The notes below the pieces were generated by a model that worked only from the letters and a program-made list of their open reading frames with translations, did no database searches and was not told the DNA's origin. The translations under genes were made by a program, and so were the position numbers. Positions 3,443-14,483 of a stretch of 20,601 nucleotides of DNA are shown here, piece by piece; the stretch's first letter is position 1, and each line of letters opens with the position of its first letter. The stretch lies in IMG/VR virus record IMGVR_UViG_3300028393_002123, positions 1 to 20,601 of that record. One strand, written 5' to 3'. The stretch comes from a virus.

Positions 3443-3633
3443 TGGTCGAACTTTTCCACATGTTCAATCCTGGCATACCCGTAGCCAAACGCACGCAGCG
3501 CGGGTTCCACAAGCATCTCTAGCACGTCGGGCAACATAAGGTCGTCATCTGGCACCAAGATGGTGACTACCGGATGCTTCATGTTTGGCTTCTCGTTAGA
3601 CTGGTCCTTGGTGGGTTCAATGGTGATTTTCAT
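3439..3633 (-). CDS. Small conserved-looking hypothetical protein (64 aa)
   Basis: A 64-aa protein of unknown function. The first 18 residues are polar and Lys/Glu-rich. A beta strand, HPVVTILVP, leads to DDDLMLPDVLEMLVEPALRAFGYG, which reads as a strand-loop-helix. The start is ATG 3633 and not the TTG 33 bases upstream, because ATG 3633 forms an ATGA overlap with the preceding stop. Its own stop overlaps the resolvase start the same way. The leader before the ATG contains AACCAA, not a Shine-Dalgarno sequence. Proteins with this short shape are common companions of phage recombination genes, but I cannot assign a role. Confidence 0.7.
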   Translation of the reverse strand: MKITIEPTKDQSNEKPNMKHPVVTILVPDDDLMLPDVLEMLVEPALRAFGYGYARIEHVEKFDQ

Positions 3634-3845
3634 GGTAGATTGATTTGGTTCTCCAGTTTGCAAATAGCTTCCAGCAGCGTGTCGCCTTGCGAAGCATGGT
3701 CAGGATCAAGTTGCAAATGTTCGCAGCATTTTTCGTGCATCTCAAAAGCGTATTCAAGTTGTGCTATTTCCTCGTCTATTCGTCGGTCTTGGCAAACGTA
3801 GCAGGAAGGATGATCGCCATTACAGCGCGAGCAATTGGTTTTCAT
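3630..3845 (-). CDS. Small Cys-rich (zinc-finger-like) hypothetical protein (71 aa)
   Basis: A 71-aa protein with a Cys-rich N-terminus, CSRCNGDHPSCYVCQDRR, giving two CxxC pairs with a His between them, a plausible single zinc site. A charged helix follows (DEEIAQLEYAFEMHEKCCEHL). It is bracketed by ATGA overlaps on both sides (3842-3845 and 3630-3633), which supports both the gene and its start. The function is unknown; the zinc knuckle suggests nucleic-acid or protein binding. Confidence 0.7.
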   Translation of the reverse strand: MKTNCSRCNGDHPSCYVCQDRRIDEEIAQLEYAFEMHEKCCEHLQLDPDHASQGDTLLEAICKLENQINLP

Positions 3846-4054
3846 AGCGTCGGTTGGTTGTGTGGAGAATCCATAAATTCGATCACTGGTTTTTCGGCGC
3901 GTGATTGGCGGTATTGCAGTTCCACCCGCAGTGAGCCGATGACTACCGCCCCGGCGCGACAGATTGCCATGGCTTCCTCCGCGCTGATTTCCTTCTTCTC
4001 CAGTGCCGTTACGGTGCTAGCCATCTTCTTTCTCAGTTTCTCGATTGTGTTCAT
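3842..4054 (-). CDS. Small helical hypothetical protein (70 aa)
   Basis: A 70-aa protein with two predicted amphipathic helices, TIEKLRKKMASTVTALEKK and SAEEAMAICRAGAVVIGSLR, followed by a polar tail. No catalytic motif is visible and I do not recognise the family. Its start (ATG 4054) and stop both lie in ATGA overlaps with neighbours, so translation is coupled along the chain. The leader upstream of the ATG contains GGAACCAAA, a motif that recurs before several starts here. Confidence 0.68.
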   Translation of the reverse strand: MNTIEKLRKKMASTVTALEKKEISAEEAMAICRAGAVVIGSLRVELQYRQSRAEKPVIEFMDSPHNQPTL

Positions 4055-5781: not shown

Positions 5782-5990
5782 GGCTGTGTATCTTCGGTGT
5801 TGTGCAGAGAAAGAAGAGCGGCAGCCATTGCAGCCCGATCATCGACGTATCCATAATGCATCTCCATCATGCCGCGCAATGCCGTTTCAAGCTCGCGGCA
5901 CAGTCTGGCGTATTCGGGTAGCTTGGCACTTGAAGGCAGATCTCGCTTGTCCATGTCGATTTCCCTGAGGTCTGTTAGCGGCGTTTCCAT
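5778..5990 (-). CDS. Small hypothetical protein (70 aa)
   Basis: A 70-aa mildly acidic protein that is probably helical throughout: LPEYARLCRELETALRGMM then DDRAAMAAALLSL. No known motif is visible. It opens this block of coupled genes directly upstream of the exonuclease, with its stop in an ATGA overlap with that gene. A perfect 11-bp hairpin (6007-6035) ends 16 bases before its ATG 5990, so its translation or expression may depend on that structure. Confidence 0.65.
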   Translation of the reverse strand: METPLTDLREIDMDKRDLPSSAKLPEYARLCRELETALRGMMEMHYGYVDDRAAMAAALLSLHNTEDTQP

Positions 5991-6006
5991 TTACTTTTTG
6001 CGTTAC

Positions 6007-6035
6007 GTGCCATGCGCTTTTTTTGCGCATGGCAC
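6007..6035. repeat. Perfect 11-bp hairpin with 7-base T/A loop
   Basis: GTGCCATGCGC (6007-6017), seven T, then GCGCATGGCAC (6025-6035). On the minus-strand transcript the loop is A7. It sits between the 61-aa gene stop (6043) and the start at 5990. Neither side of the stem is followed by a T-run on its own transcript, so it is not a standard intrinsic terminator. RNA stabilisation, attenuation or processing are alternatives. Confidence 0.75.
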
Positions 6036-6042
6036 ATTGTGA

Positions 6043-6228
6043 TTAGGCAGCTTTATAAGCTACCTCGAAAGGGATGAGTTCGACCTTGGATGGGTCGATG
6101 TTGAGTTTCTGGCAGACTGCCGGAAGTGAAGCCTGCGTAGTGCAGGCAAGTGAGAGATTGTTTGGACTTTTAGCCCAACCAAATGAGAGAGTGAGGAATG
6201 TTTTATCAGACTTACGTTGGATCAGCAT
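6043..6228 (-). CDS. Small hypothetical protein, first gene of the left operon (61 aa)
   Basis: A 61-aa protein from ATG 6228, ending in TAA. A short N-terminal beta region (FLTLSFGW) is followed by a helix and the segment LPAVCQKLNIDPSKVELIPF. I do not recognise it. The frame stays open upstream as far as 6507, but that extension is Asn/Gln/Ser/Pro-rich, overlaps the opposing regulator gene and looks non-coding, so the internal ATG is preferred. It is the first minus-strand gene left of the switch region, a position often used by lytic-cycle regulators or small early proteins. The leader carries AAACCAACAAACAA with no Shine-Dalgarno sequence. Confidence 0.55.
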   Translation of the reverse strand: MLIQRKSDKTFLTLSFGWAKSPNNLSLACTTQASLPAVCQKLNIDPSKVELIPFEVAYKAA

Positions 6229-6475
6229 TTGTTTGTTGGTTTGTTGTTTTTGGAAGATCTGCCCCGAAGGGCTTGGATTATTTTTGTTTTGTGAAGAGGC
6301 CACGTGGGCCACTCCGTTGTGGAGTTGGTTTTTGTTTTTTGGTTGGGAGGATGAGGATGATGGAGTCGACTTGTTGGTTGGTGTTGGACATGCGCAAACA
6401 ATGTATGCATTGCATTCACTTGTCCAGTTTTTATTTTTGCATTGCACACTTTTTTTTATGGGGTAGGATTCGCCC
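6229..6475. promoter_or_regulatory. Switch-like intergenic region between divergent genes
   Basis: This region of 247 bases separates the plus-strand HTH gene from the minus-strand 61-aa gene. The 9-mer TGCATTGCA occurs at 6406-6414 and 6438-6446, exactly 32 bp apart (about three helical turns). An overlapping inverted repeat, CAATG-TATG-CATTG, lies at 6399-6412, and TGGACA/TGTCCA arms flank it at 6385-6390 and 6421-6426. Repeated half-sites between divergent genes are what a repressor-operator region would look like. Assigning them to the adjacent HTH protein is inference. Confidence 0.55.
6410..6437 (+). promoter_or_regulatory. Candidate promoter for the HTH regulator
   Basis: TTGCAT (6410-6415) and TATTTT (6432-6437) are spaced 16 bases apart, about 40 bases upstream of ATG 6476. 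The match to sigma70 hexamers is only moderate. The -35 overlaps one TGCATTGCA copy and the second copy lies just downstream of the -10, so the promoter would be operator-controlled if real. Confidence 0.3.
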
Positions 6476-6670
6476 ATGAGCTTCACCGAAGACCTTGCCC
6501 CATACACCGCGCCTGAGATCGTCCAGTTTCTCGGTTGCCCTCGCGCTACAGCCTACCAGTGGAAGGACGGGCGACGGATGCCGCCTGAGTGGCAGCAATC
6601 GCATTGGCTCCGTATCCTGGCCGCAGCGTCGAAGAAGCACAACAAGACAGTGGACAGGGAATCACCATGA
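6476..6670 (+). CDS. Small HTH DNA-binding regulator
   Basis: A 64-aa protein and the only supported plus-strand gene. It is almost entirely a helix-turn-helix domain. YTAPEIVQFL (about 10-19) forms the first helix, GCPR the turn, ATAYQWKDG (24-32) the recognition helix, then RRMPPEW and WLRILAAASKK. The pattern with x-x-x-YQWKDGRRMPP is typical of Cro/YdaS-type phage regulators. It faces the minus-strand operon across a region with repeated operator-like sequences and converges on recT at its 3' end. A repressor or Cro-like role in an early-gene switch is the simplest reading; an excisionase-like role is an alternative. The start at ATG 6476 has only a weak GGGG-rich leader. Confidence 0.8.
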   Translation: MSFTEDLAPYTAPEIVQFLGCPRATAYQWKDGRRMPPEWQQSHWLRILAAASKKHNKTVDRESP

Positions 6671-6719
6671 GCGGTGAAGTCCTGCGTGATTGACTGGCCG
6701 TGTCCTCGCTCATGGTGAT
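6661..6719. terminator. Convergent-end 13-bp inverted repeat (possible bidirectional terminator)
   Basis: ATCACCATGAGCG (6661-6673) pairs perfectly with CGCTCATGGTGAT (6707-6719) around a 33-base loop. The stop codons of both converging genes (HTH at 6668-6670, recT at 6710-6712) fall inside the two arms. There is no T-run on either side, so termination is a guess from position; the inverted repeat itself is certain. Confidence 0.45.
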
Positions 6720-7447
6720 CCGTCACTTTTTGCGTTAAGGTTTTCGATCTCAGGCGTTGTCTCAATCGCTTTCGGCAGTGCAAATGATGGCACCGATGGC
6801 GTCACGTTTCGCATGGTAAACTGATCGTCATCACGCTCGACGTGGCGCATGATCTCGCTGGAAATCGGGAGCATCTTCGAGAGGCGCCGAACGGCAGTCT
6901 TTTTTGCCATTTCCGCCCAGTCGGTTTTCCATGGCCCATTGTTGCCGGATCGTGACCGGCTGCGAATTGCCTCGACCTCTTTCGTTGTCATCACTGCCGT
7001 CTGCTTTTCCCCGCTCTTCATCACGGCCACAGCATAGACAGCCTGGATCTCACCTCGATCCTCGCGCCAGTTGACAGCGTGAGTCACTTCGCCATTAGAC
7101 CATGAAAAGTCGTCCCGTTCGCAGACCGTTTCAGCTCGGATCGAAACCACGTCACCTGATCGGCGGATTAGCTCGATCAAGCCTTTATAGTCGATGATCA
7201 GAGTTGCCTCGGTGCCGTAGGGGATCAAATGCGCTCGCCGTCCATCCGGCTCAAGGCCCATTGCGGACAGATCAAGGAGGCACTTCATTAGGCTCGCTGG
7301 CGTGCAGTCCTGGAGCTTCGGAGTGCGCGTCAGAGCTGTGATTGCAACTCGGGAAAAGCGTTCGGCAGTGAGGTGCTTAGGTAAGGCGCGAGCGAATTGA
7401 TCGCGCATCGCGTCGGAATTGATCAGTGTTTTTAGGTCGTTGCTCAT
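6710..7447 (-). CDS. recT: RecT-family single-strand annealing protein
   Basis: A 245-aa recombinase of the RecT type. The family core is easy to follow: SLMKCLLDLSAMGLEPDG (52-69), HLIPYGTEATLIIDYKGLIE (73-92), a SIRAETVCERDDF segment (102-114), YAVAVMKSG (138-146), TTKEVEAIR (154-162) and W-x-x-D-W-x-E-M-x-K-K-T-x-V-R-R (about 173-188). It pairs complementary single strands produced by the YqaJ-type exonuclease, promoting phage recombination and repair of ends. The C-terminal 40 residues are variable and probably disordered. The start ATG 7447 overlaps a small membrane-protein gene as ATGA. The gene ends facing the plus-strand regulator. Confidence 0.93.
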   Translation of the reverse strand: MSNDLKTLINSDAMRDQFARALPKHLTAERFSRVAITALTRTPKLQDCTPASLMKCLLDLSAMGLEPDGRRAHLIPYGTEATLIIDYKGLIELIRRSGDVVSIRAETVCERDDFSWSNGEVTHAVNWREDRGEIQAVYAVAVMKSGEKQTAVMTTKEVEAIRSRSRSGNNGPWKTDWAEMAKKTAVRRLSKMLPISSEIMRHVERDDDQFTMRNVTPSVPSFALPKAIETTPEIENLNAKSDGSP

Positions 7448-10461: not shown

Positions 10462-10740
10462 TCATTCGTTGGTTTTGAGTGATTCCAATGCTGGGAACAA
10501 GAGATTGTCGAGGCAGCGGACCACCGCTTCCTCTTCAAATCGTTTGAGGTGTGACAGGCCAGCGACGGCAAAGCAAGCATGAATCATTTCATGGCGAAGG
10601 GTTTCGAGCGGGTTGATCTTGGCCGACGGACCCAGTCGAATGATCCACTCGTCAGGGCTAAAAGTTCCGTATTCAGCGAGGTCCAGATCCTCGATGACCT
10701 CAATGCGCTTGCCGCCGATTGTGACGTGATCAGGTATCAT
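10462..10740 (-). CDS. Small HExxH metallopeptidase-like protein
   Basis: A 92-aa protein with a zincin motif, LRHEMIHACFAVAGL, giving H50-E51-x-x-H54. A downstream FEEEAVVR (about 69-76) could supply the third ligand, as in gluzincins. The short N-terminal beta part (DHVTIGGKRIEVIED, then a DEWIIRLG strand) matches the layout of minimal phage peptidases related to SprT or ImmA/IrrE. In phages such proteins are variously thought to process proteins or inactivate repressors. No HTH is attached here, but an HTH gene follows one base downstream. The stop of the preceding gene overlaps by 11 bases. Confidence 0.78.
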   Translation of the reverse strand: MIPDHVTIGGKRIEVIEDLDLAEYGTFSPDEWIIRLGPSAKINPLETLRHEMIHACFAVAGLSHLKRFEEEAVVRCLDNLLFPALESLKTNE

Positions 10741-10918
10741 TAGGCGTAATTTCCGCGCACATCGCTCCTTCTAGAAGCTCGCTAAGGTCGATGGCAAAGT
10801 CAGCCGCCGAGTGTTGTTGAGACTTGGCGAGCTTTCCGGTCTTAATGATGTCACTGAGCCATCCGCGAAGAGAGTGGAGCGTTTCCATTTCTTCGTGTGA
10901 GATCATGTAAACTTTCAT
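10730..10918 (-). CDS. Small hypothetical protein (62 aa)
   Basis: A 62-aa acidic helical protein. MKVYMISHEEMETLHSLRGW starts it, and a second helix (HSAADFAIDLSELLEGAMCA) follows a polar loop. ATG 10918 is chosen because it overlaps the holin-like gene stop as ATGA; the longer upstream frame reads through the holin gene in another frame. The family is not recognised. Confidence 0.62.
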   Translation of the reverse strand: MKVYMISHEEMETLHSLRGWLSDIIKTGKLAKSQQHSAADFAIDLSELLEGAMCAEITPNDT

Positions 10919-11106
10919 TTTGGCTTTTTCTTGAGAAGACTCCAGATTGTTAAAAATCCGACTGTGATACCGACGACCAGCGAAAAGATTCTCATCCCCC
11001 ACTCTATCTGCTCCTGCATGCTGGTCAGCACTGCAAGCGCATTTACGGTCATTCCGCAAATTCCCATTACAATCTTCGACCCAACCGTGAGCTGATCTTC
11101 ATTCAT
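10915..11106 (-). CDS. Holin-like two-helix membrane protein (63 aa)
   Basis: A 63-aa protein with two hydrophobic segments, about 11-30 (SKIVMGICGMTVNALAVLTS) and about 36-57 (GMRIFSLVVGITVGFLTIW), separated by a short polar turn (MQEQIEW) and closed by a Lys-rich tail. This is the layout of class II holins. It directly follows the GH75-like hydrolase gene with an ATGA overlap, which supports a lysis role: holes in the inner membrane would release or activate the hydrolase. Another membrane protein (57 aa) upstream competes for the holin role, so one may be an antiholin or pinholin. Confidence 0.68.
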   Translation of the reverse strand: MNEDQLTVGSKIVMGICGMTVNALAVLTSMQEQIEWGMRIFSLVVGITVGFLTIWSLLKKKPK

Positions 11107-11582
11107 GCCGGTTGCAGATTGTAGGTGGTGCCGTTGACGGTCGCCGGAACGCTCGGAAAAATCTCATACGTCACTTCATGCGAATCCGTTCCTCCATGGT
11201 TCGGATTCGGGTCGAGTCCGATGGCTTGTGCTGCGGCTGGCGATAGCTCTCCAATCTTCCGGCGCGGTCCAATGTCGGCCACTACGCAATCAACTGATCG
11301 GCCTCGATAGCTGGCTCGCGCTTTGCAGCCCATCACTACGCCTCTAGTGCGCTGGATGATGAGCGGAGGGACCACAATAAACGGGACCACGTCTGCATCG
11401 ATCGAGTGGCCATTGAAGCGCAGCGTTGTGTCCGGTTGCCAGCATGGATCGTGATGTGGATTGCTTCCTCCATCGCAATCAATCGCGGCCTTTGCCGTCC
11501 ACCAGGCTCGCTCTTGCCCGGTCGCTGATTGCTCAAGCCGAATGTCACATCCTTCGATTTTTCCGATGCTGGTCGAGTTCAT
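11103..11582 (-). CDS. GH75 chitosanase-like hydrolase, probable endolysin
   Basis: A 159-aa protein matching the glycoside hydrolase family 75 (fungal-type chitosanase) pattern: AAIDCDGG (32-39), PDTTLRFNG (50-58), a DADVVPFIVVPP strand (62-73), GVVMGCKA, then DIGPRRKIGELS (103-114) with candidate acidic catalytic residues D103 and E112, AAAQAIGLDPNP and the closing YEIFPS. There is no signal peptide. Position in a cassette of small membrane proteins, with ATGA overlaps on both sides, suggests that it degrades a cell-wall polymer at lysis. Whether the substrate is peptidoglycan or another glucosamine-rich glycan is inference; GH75 enzymes are classically endo-chitosanases. Confidence 0.78.
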   Translation of the reverse strand: MNSTSIGKIEGCDIRLEQSATGQERAWWTAKAAIDCDGGSNPHHDPCWQPDTTLRFNGHSIDADVVPFIVVPPLIIQRTRGVVMGCKARASYRGRSVDCVVADIGPRRKIGELSPAAAQAIGLDPNPNHGGTDSHEVTYEIFPSVPATVNGTTYNLQPA

Positions 11583-11668
11583 GGCGTGTCATCGTTACCT
11601 TCTGGACGGTAGGTCAACACATCCCAGAGGACGTAGATGATTGTCAGCACCCATTGGACGAGGATCAT
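11579..11668 (-). CDS. 29-aa membrane peptide of the lysis cassette
   Basis: A 29-codon ORF that opens at ATG 11668, in an ATGA overlap with the lipoprotein stop (11665-11668), and ends in an ATGA overlap with the hydrolase start (11579-11582). Residues 2-18 form one hydrophobic helix rich in Ile/Val/Leu with two Trp, followed by an acidic, polar tail (RPEGNDDTP). The two overlaps are the evidence for translation. Size and location suggest a lysis accessory such as an inner-membrane spanin subunit remnant, a pinholin-like peptide or simply a coupling ORF. It is too short for any homology argument. Confidence 0.55.
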   Translation of the reverse strand: MILVQWVLTIIYVLWDVLTYRPEGNDDTP

Positions 11669-11865
11669 TTCTCGGAGTGAATGGTGGCGTATGTGCGGAC
11701 CGCTAGGCCGGCGAGCGGCACCGCGGACGGGTCGATCCCACCTTTGATCTCGGTCTTCCGAACGGTGCCGTCTAGCAGCGTTTCGGTGATCGTGGTCGAT
11801 GGAGCGCAGGACGAGAGCGACCATACGAGCGCGAATGCTGCGGCGAGGTAAGCAAGTGTTCTCAT
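11665..11865 (-). CDS. Small lipoprotein, possible outer spanin
   Basis: A 66-aa protein with a clear lipoprotein signal: MRT, a hydrophobic core (LAYLAAAFALVW) and lipobox L-S-S-C with Cys20. The mature part is about 46 residues: a Ser/Thr-rich start, a polar LLDGTVRKTEIKGG strand and a short helix. A small lipoprotein beside holin and hydrolase genes fits an outer-membrane spanin (Rz1-like) or a wall-anchoring lysis component, and implies a Gram-negative-type envelope. It is not Pro-rich like classic Rz1, so this is inference. The start overlaps the upstream 57-aa gene as ATGA, and the stop overlaps the 29-aa gene. Confidence 0.7.
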   Translation of the reverse strand: MRTLAYLAAAFALVWSLSSCAPSTTITETLLDGTVRKTEIKGGIDPSAVPLAGLAVRTYATIHSEK

Positions 11866-12035
11866 GGCTTTCCTGTGGCGTTGAAGTCTTTTGAGACGTA
11901 ACCCATGACGGCGATGGCAACCGGAACTACCCAGGTCTTCCAGTCTTCCAGTTTTGCTCCGTTCTGGAGGATGTTGGTCAGTGCTACGAGCGCAGCAGTA
12001 ATGACCCCGGCGATGGTTGTTTTTAGATTCTTCAT
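11862..12035 (-). CDS. Two-helix holin-like membrane protein (57 aa)
   Basis: A 57-aa ORF from ATG 12035 to TGA 11862-11864. It starts MKNLKTTIAG, then has a hydrophobic helix (about 8-24, VITAALVALTNIL), a polar turn (NGAKLEDWK) and a second helix (WVVPVAIAVMGYV, about 35-47), ending in a short polar tail. I associate the MKTTIAG-start, two-helix plan with small phage holins. Both ends lie in ATGA overlaps, with the 124-aa gene before and the lipoprotein after. Either this or the 63-aa protein should be the holin. Confidence 0.68.
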   Translation of the reverse strand: MKNLKTTIAGVITAALVALTNILQNGAKLEDWKTWVVPVAIAVMGYVSKDFNATGKP

Positions 12036-12406
12036 AGTGCTTCTAGTTCGGCTTGTTTGGCAGCGATTTCCGCCGCGATTTCGAGTTTGCGTTTCTCCAC
12101 GGAAGGTAATTCGGCAGCGGCAAAAACTTGCTCGATGGCTGAAACCGTGGCGGCGTCATCGAGATTGGCGTCTGCGATGGCGGATTTGATCGCGTCCTTG
12201 GCAGAGTCGATCAAAGCATTCTTGGCAGCGAGGTCGATTTCCAGTTCGACGACTTTTGCGAGCGCGCCGAAATTTATCCCGTCGATGTTTCTTGGCCAGT
12301 CTTCGGGGTTGAGTGGACGAGGTTGCGAATCGGGCGTTTCGATAACATAGGCACCCTTAAAAGTGCCGTCTTCATTGTTACAAATACAAATTTGATATGG
12401 TGTCAT
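12032..12406 (-). CDS. Hypothetical protein after the tail fibre (124 aa)
   Basis: A 124-aa protein. Residues 1-45 form a polar beta-rich part beginning YQICICNNEDGTFKGAYVIE, and the remaining 80 residues are helical and Ala/Glu/Lys-rich (from ALAKVVELEIDLAAKNAL to the C-terminal AAKQAELEAL), a likely coiled coil. It directly follows the tail fibre gene, a place where fibre chaperones and fibre-associated proteins often occur, but no specific family is recognised. Its stop is coupled by ATGA to the holin-like gene; the leader has TAACCACC. Confidence 0.65.
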   Translation of the reverse strand: MTPYQICICNNEDGTFKGAYVIETPDSQPRPLNPEDWPRNIDGINFGALAKVVELEIDLAAKNALIDSAKDAIKSAIADANLDDAATVSAIEQVFAAAELPSVEKRKLEIAAEIAAKQAELEAL

Positions 12407-12434: not shown

Positions 12435-14483
12435 TTAGTTGACCCTTACTACTTCAAGGAATGATCCTGCTAGGCGGGATACTGTTCCTGATCCTGATTC
12501 AATGTAGAAATACAAATACAAAGTTCCAGAGGTTTCGGCTGTTAGTGTGCCGCGAAACCCTGCCCCTTGGGTTCCGCCCGCTCCTACATTGTAGCATGAA
12601 TAACTTGCGTAAGCGGTGGGATAAGCGACTTGAACTACGCTTTCAGTATTGTATCCCACACGTTCGTAGATAAAGGATTGTTTAGCAGCTACAAGGGAGC
12701 ATGTTCCTGCTAGATTCCCATTTGGTGCAGCTGTGCCAGTGGCTTTCAACTTCGCCCACATGCTTATCTTGTAGATACCTCCAGCTACAACATTGACCGT
12801 TAAAGTAGTATCGTTCTGGGTTCCGCTGCTGATGGTAAGATCCGAAGTGGCAACTTTTCTTTGGAACTCGGTTTCAAATACTACGGAGCCGCTGCCTATT
12901 TCATCAGTCAATGCTGCGGCGAGATTCGCGCTTGATGGCGTAGCGAGGAAGGTTGCCACTCCGGTTCCGAGTCCAGAGACGCCAGTTGAGATCGGAAGCC
13001 CTGTTGCGTTTGTCAGCGTTCCCGAGCTTGGCGTGCCGAGTGTTGGAGTCGTTAATGTCGGACTCGTTAATGTCTTGTTCGTCAACGTATCTGTGCTCGA
13101 TGTCGTCACGACGTTGACCCCCTCGACTGCGATTCGACCTGCGGACACGCGGGAAATTGTAGTATCAGTAGCGTGGCCTAGCTCAATGCTGCCGACGCCA
13201 AGTGCAAGCGTGGTGGATGCTGTTAGTCCGCTGATCGGAAGACCTGTGCAGCTTGTAAGAGTGCCACCAGAAGGTGTGCCGAGTGTTGGAGTTGTCAGCG
13301 TCGGACTTGTGAGCGTCTTGTTCGTCAGGGTTTCCGTGCCTGTCAGTGTTGCCAATGTTCCGCTCGTCGGCAGTGTGACATTGGTTGATGCCGTCGTCGT
13401 CAGAGTCAGCGCAAAGTTGCCGCTCGTCGTCAGATTATTCGCAAGCGAAAGATCGCCAGACAGAGAAACTGTCCGCGCTGTGCCAGTTCCGTCTTTGATC
13501 CCGAATCCACCTGTGGCACCATAAATTGCAGTGCGTCCTGCTACAAGCGTCGGAGCAGTGCCTTGCAGCATGACAAAATGCCCAGCCGCACCTCCTGTCG
13601 GAATGCTGGCAAAGTGTCCGGTGTTGGTAGCATCGCCGCTGACGTTTGCAGTTCCGTCAAAGGCAAGTCCGAAGATATTCCGTGAGGTAGCCAGCGCGGT
13701 TGCCGTGGCGACGTTTGAGGTAGTCAGGGCGACTGTGCCGTCGGCGACGTCTGGGAATGCAAAGGCGCGATCGGCGGTCGGACTGTGGGAAAGCGTGGTA
13801 GTATAAGTGCCGTCGTAAAGTTTAAAGGTGGTGCGAGACTGGATGTATGCGTTTGGGCTAAGTGTGGAGATTGCGCCGTTATATGCGATAGTTCCAACTA
13901 CACCATCAATATTATTAGAAAACTCCATTATGATTCCTCCAGACGCAGAGAAGCTGCCAGCAACTCCGCTGCTTGTTGAGAAATTACCACCACTTCCAGA
14001 ATTACTCGCTCCAACAACACCGCTGCCGCTATCGCTCTCAAAAAGTCCTCCGTTTCCATTAGCTGATGCAACTCCCTCAACAGCATTTCCAGAAACGTTC
14101 GCAAATTTTGCGCCGCCTACTGTATTCCGCAGGACGATCTTGTTCGCCGTCGCTGCGCTGGTTGCGTCGGTGATATTGGCACTGACATGAGTGTGGACTA
14201 ATGCCGCATAAACCGTTCCAAAATAGCTTGCCAGAGTCGCCTTGATGTTCGCCCATGTGACCTTCTTCAGCGCGTTGGATGCTGCCGAGTCGGTCAATGG
14301 GATCGTGTCCGCGTCAATCGGAGTCGTCTTCGCTGTCGCTGCGGTTAGAACTGCGCCAACGTTTTCATTAGTGACGGAACCTCCTTGATAGACATTTACA
14401 CCAACAATATCCCGCGATTGAGTGGCCGCGACAGAAACATTGTTGGGAACTTGAGTGACGGTTACTGAAACTGATTCGCTCAT
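12435..14483 (-). CDS. Repetitive tail fibre with C1q-like C-terminus (682 aa)
   Basis: A 682-aa Thr/Ser/Ala/Gly-rich protein typical of trimeric phage tail fibres. The N-terminal region (1-120) includes a [11 protein letters not shown] segment; HTH motifs of this kind occur in fibre stalks. The middle carries Gly/Ser-rich stretches (about 140-200) and two copies of a 35-residue repeat starting [12 protein letters not shown] and ending GLPIS (about 382-417 and 463-497). The last 145 residues, with [12 protein letters not shown], a GTLYLYFY strand and [11 protein letters not shown], resemble a C1q/TNF-like jelly-roll tip, the likely receptor-binding head. It starts at ATG 14483 in an ATGA overlap with the preceding baseplate-like gene. 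Confidence 0.87.
12991..13098 (-). repeat. Tail fibre repeat, copy 2
   Basis: This stretch of about 108 bases encodes the second [12 protein letters not shown]...GLPIS unit of the fibre. It matches 13233-13340 over most of its length, with mainly synonymous differences, and the two copies are 242 bases apart. Such in-frame repeats can recombine to change fibre length. Confidence 0.8.
13233..13340 (-). repeat. Tail fibre repeat, copy 1
   Basis: This is the first unit of the pair in the fibre gene, encoding about residues 382-417. The amino-acid motif is nearly identical to the other copy, whereas the DNA differs at several third positions, so the duplication is not recent or has been under protein-level selection. 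Confidence 0.8.

Follow-up and report, generated by a model that had tools for sequence, protein, structure and literature searches.

A GH75-type hydrolase as the probable endolysin in a compact phage lysis cassette

A 20.6-kb viral genome fragment (IMG/VR record IMGVR_UViG_3300028393_002123, 20,601 nt; hereafter the window), whose genes lie on the minus strand, harbors a cassette of five small overlapping ORFs in which a 159-aa GH75-type hydrolase is likely, on the basis of sequence comparison and structural modelling, to be the endolysin. The cassette as a whole would then belong to a known type of lysis cassette, its endolysin being of a class not previously recognised. In viruses, this type of enzyme has so far been described only as the product of a chitosan-degrading auxiliary gene, a label that probably needs revising. 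Wu et al. (2022) treated 142 viral GH75 genes as auxiliary metabolic genes (AMGs), one of which, V-Csn, was active on chitosan (PMC9485262); matches to lysozyme models were removed in that study, whose text was found to contain none of the words lysis, endolysin and peptidoglycan. No proposal of a GH75 enzyme as an endolysin was found in the literature searched, which lay outside subscription papers and preprints. A 2025 review gives a general warning that glycoside hydrolases labelled as AMGs can be lysins (PMC12713726).

Cassette architecture and selection

The five ORFs of the minus-strand cassette (12035-10915; 57, 66, 29, 159 and 63 aa) each start with an ATG that shares 4 bp (ATGA) with the stop of the ORF before, as originally predicted for this interval (Table 1). 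Counting the junctions with a 124-aa ORF before the cassette (stop at 12032) and a 62-aa ORF after it (start at 10918), there are six in all. Relatives were gathered from IMG/VR with several seeds, and related loci and contigs are given L and G numbers. In a comparison set comprising the window and L002, L003, L004 and L005, all five cassette ORFs are under purifying selection; as dN/dS is 0.04-0.23 across the cassette, even the 29-aa peptide is a real gene. The 124-aa ORF, though coupled to the cassette, is probably tail-related.

Two flanking ORFs, both on the minus strand, also deserve mention. The tail-fibre-like ORF at 12435-14483 diverges strongly in its N-terminus and middle among the window and L002-L005, with the next genes nearly unchanged, a pattern suggesting that host-recognition modules are exchanged. 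A 92-aa ORF (10462-10740) has a HEMIH motif of the HExxH type and weak SprT-like and phrog_1233 matches, and is possibly a small zinc peptidase.

Table 1. Coordinates of the cassette, its coupled neighbours and the active-site codons of the hydrolase in the window
Feature	Position	Strand	Remarks
124-aa soluble ORF lying between the tail fibre gene and the cassette	12032..12406	-	fast-evolving, dN/dS 0.39; weak phrog_27270 match, E 0.004
57-aa membrane protein, holin candidate	11862..12035	-	dN/dS 0.04; weak PHROG holin matches; homologues near lysis enzymes
66-aa lipoprotein	11665..11865	-	lipobox LSSC20; dN/dS 0.08
29-aa single-helix membrane peptide	11579..11668	-	helix at residues 2-18; dN/dS 0.23
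159-aa GH75-type double-psi beta-barrel hydrolase, proposed endolysin	11103..11582	-	dN/dS 0.04; phmmer, structure, acids
63-aa two-helix membrane protein	10915..11106	-	two helices; dN/dS 0.04
62-aa soluble ORF, coupled to cassette end	10730..10918	-	ATGA junction; dN/dS 0.09
D35 codon (= V-Csn D34)	11478..11480	-	28 D, 35 C and 1 N among 64 relatives
D37 codon (= V-Csn D36, proposed catalytic base)	11472..11474	-	kept in 64/64
D103 codon (= V-Csn D148)	11274..11276	-	41 D, 23 E in 64 relatives
E112 codon (= V-Csn E157, proposed general acid)	11247..11249	-	kept in 64/64

Fold and active site of the hydrolase

The Pfam GH75 model (PF07335) gives the 159-aa hydrolase 19.4 bits, below the curated cut-off of 27, and the protein is therefore named GH75-type and not a GH75 member; the cut-off is passed by relatives including V-Csn, L027, L028, L042 and L067. 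The last of these (5821-7056, on a Microcystis contig) is a cellular GH75 protein of 411 aa, without a signal peptide and with a C-terminal domain that received no assignment. PF07335 matched none of the control genomes, so absences by this model were not counted.

The GH75-like character claimed by the original prediction, sub-threshold in Pfam, was rescued by a phmmer match to V-Csn (E 1e-10), by structure and by the presence of all four active-site acids of GH75 enzymes, D-D-D-E (D35, D37, D103 and E112). The proposed structural check also bore it out: the AlphaFold2 model (55-sequence alignment, pLDDT 96.9) is a double-psi beta-barrel, one fold throughout, for which five V-Csn PDB entries rank top in Foldseek (E down to 4.9e-12). 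A weak match to a PGRP protein in BFVD was not relied on.

The hydrolase has no signal peptide, and by a hydropathy test 63 of 64 representatives have no hydrophobic stretch at the N-terminus beyond the domain. Since such a signal would be needed by a secreted metabolic enzyme and not by a holin-dependent endolysin, this absence favours the latter.

Genomic context of GH75-type genes

An Amidase_3 domain precedes the GH75 domain in six distinct proteins (L060, L092, L108, L112, L133 and L136), that of L060 matching Pfam at 7.7e-26 and PHROGs 'endolysin' at 3.3e-54; the fusion order is reversed in L042, and in L030 the two are encoded by separate ORFs, that of Amidase_3 overlapping the GH75 ORF at its end. 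Amidase_3 was found in only 6 of 49 viral contigs with GH75-type genes, every time fused to or overlapping GH75, and family searches found SLT, Amidase_2, Phage_lysozyme and M15 absent or nearly so from the same contigs. A weak M15 match in G034, where the ORF upstream of GH75 is short and sub-threshold, was not counted. Amidase linkage appears in separate parts of the tree around the window sequence, in which many forks are weakly supported.

A separate canonical endolysin elsewhere in the genome would speak against the prediction. The near-complete relative G002 (33.9 kb) has a tail fibre followed by replication, terminase, head and tail genes, and Pfam recognised no other peptidoglycan hydrolase in 41 proteins, taken from G002 and the tail proteins of the window, itself a genome fragment. 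The PHROG scan of G002, with the best 25 of 54 families listed, counts among the limits of the endolysin case.

Comparison of gene order in related phages, another check proposed at the outset, was likewise supportive. For 35 of 61 GH75 genes, the 1.5 kb upstream holds one or more small transmembrane (TM) ORFs, compared with 63 of 331 other genes at the same loci (P 3e-9), and a small TM ORF is the immediate upstream neighbour of 23 of 63 GH75 genes versus 32 of 389 control genes; these counts derive from crude ORF calling and from loci clustered at 80% identity, which are not fully independent. Downstream of GH75 genes, no such enrichment was found. L109 repeats the cassette order (TM, TM, lipoprotein, TM, GH75) with overlapping ORFs, its small ORFs being unrelated to those of the window. 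Counting against an endolysin, the crude ORF caller places no small TM ORF in the upstream 1.5 kb of about 43% of members, and L025 and L058 lie in head or baseplate regions without membrane neighbours.

Such positions raise the alternative of a virion-associated lysin, carried in the particle to open the cell wall at entry, to which the location of several fusion loci, with tail fibre genes on one side and baseplate genes on the other, also points. It is unlikely for the window enzyme, whose gene is ATGA-coupled to small membrane genes, whose 159 aa are all one fold without a structural domain, and which would require a separate lysis lysin, none being recognised. The L025 gene itself (5992-6438) encodes a 47% relative among head genes, directly after a protease-capsid-like ORF, unlike the arrangement in the window; its product may have a virion role.

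Slightly less probable still is an auxiliary metabolic role, as proposed for V-Csn, in which a chitosanase would let the infected host feed on chitosan. The closest solved structure does cleave chitosan, all four acids are kept, and no report of peptidoglycan activity was found in the literature searched for any GH75 enzyme, which counts against an endolysin. Against a metabolic gene, however, stand the near-universal lack of a secretion signal, shared by the window enzyme, the placement of the gene among membrane ORFs, the fused or overlapping amidases of relatives, and G002 with its lack of another recognised lysin. Finally, weaker Foldseek matches to kiwellin, expansins and a Streptomyces papain inhibitor would suit an expansin- or kiwellin-like barrel that binds carbohydrate without catalysis, but the invariance of the proposed base and acid and the low dN/dS of the hydrolase make this very improbable.

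The endolysin predicted from the window is thus backed by gene order, the missing signal peptide, the lack of a rival lysin in G002 and the amidase fusions; its activity is proposed, with peptidoglycan as the presumed substrate. The gene is also clustered with genes for small membrane proteins, among them a holin candidate by homology and position. Calling such an endolysin unusual agrees with a literature in which phage GH75 figures as an auxiliary metabolic gene, but not with how widespread the enzyme type is in uncultured phages. We lean moderately towards a wider view, in which GH75-type enzymes, alone or amidase-fused, form a broad class of phage endolysins that has gone unrecognised, and in which lysis genes account for most 'viral chitosanase AMGs', including V-Csn.

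Holin candidate and other membrane proteins

The 57-aa protein, originally described as a two-helix membrane protein, has a clear first helix and a short second one (~14 residues) that falls below the hydropathy threshold. Its PHROG holin matches are weak (E 0.012 and 0.035), and homologues with 34-42% identity occur in other lysis cassettes. In L151, a tail-fibre-like ORF, a small ORF, a TM ORF, the homologue, a lipoprotein and a GH24 lysozyme (E 9.8e-35) follow one another; in L149, the homologue and a TM ORF precede a DUF5675 protein (3477-3860, E 2.4e-38) at the place expected for an endolysin, and DUF5675 may be a lysis enzyme too. Because its homologues adjoin these enzymes in other phages, the 57-aa protein is the candidate for the holin foreseen in the membrane set and likely acts as one.

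The remaining three membrane-associated products are of the types predicted: a lipoprotein with Cys20, a single-helix peptide and a protein with two clear helices. The 66-aa lipoprotein (mature length ~47 aa) has no Asp at +2, which by the +2 sorting rule presumably places it in the outer membrane, and no C-terminal helix. It would fit the small outer-membrane lipoprotein half of a two-component spanin, and this half of the predicted spanin-like functions is plausible. No inner-membrane partner with a periplasmic coiled coil is present in the cassette, so that a spanin-like role is suggested tentatively. Pairing it with the 29-aa peptide, which has only ~11 residues beyond its helix, was not adopted for want of a periplasmic domain. 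Spanin-like lipoproteins with a C-terminal helix are found in L034 and L117. The 63-aa protein is a possible antiholin or second holin; like those of the 66- and 29-aa proteins, its role is suggested by protein type and position.

Host

The G002 terminase is nearest to those of the Akkermansia phages Chambord (45%) and Chantilly (39%), and the window metallophosphoesterase matches only Verrucomicrobia phage P8625. These phage relatives place the host of this tailed phage probably in the Gram-negative Verrucomicrobiota. The large tail proteins of the window have no homology with Chantilly or P8625. INPHARED gave no tblastn match to any of four GH75 members or two membrane proteins, and a scan of genome contigs gave only three distant cellular matches, from which no prophage or host emerged.

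Proposed mechanism and implications

In the mechanism we propose, the 57-aa holin would open the inner membrane, and the GH75-type enzyme, having no signal peptide, would exit through the hole and cleave glycan strands in the peptidoglycan. By comparison with V-Csn, E112 would serve as the general acid and D37 as the base. The lipoprotein, perhaps together with the 29-aa peptide, may help to breach the outer membrane, and the 63-aa protein may tune the timing of lysis.

V-Csn has been cited as a soil-virus gene with a proven metabolic function; should its family turn out to be lytic, this evidence that viruses contribute to chitin turnover would be weaker, and a GH75 filter would be needed in AMG pipelines. 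The cassette would also represent a described lysis module from phages that infect Verrucomicrobiota, for which few phages have been isolated, and its putative endolysin offers a compact fold that is directly assayable.

Comparison with known systems

The window enzyme and the soil viral chitosanase V-Csn (PDB 7TVL-7TVP; PMC9485262) have a common fold (Foldseek E 5e-12) and the same four acids, and the V-Csn gene follows membrane ORFs too (L026); however, V-Csn is longer (230 aa), owing part of its length to an inserted second domain that is missing from the 159-aa enzyme. The same GH75 domain is fused in the six modular Amidase_3 endolysins (phrog_435) listed above, whereas in the window it stands alone. 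The L151 cassette has the same order as the window, including a 38% identical holin candidate, but its endolysin is of the GH24 type and its lipoprotein has a C-terminal helix, which the window lipoprotein does not. Akkermansia phage Chantilly (ON453895) likewise has a small ORF, two TM ORFs and an endolysin in a row; this endolysin, by contrast, carries PG_binding_3 (PF09374, E 8e-9) and not GH75, and the large proteins encoded upstream are dissimilar.
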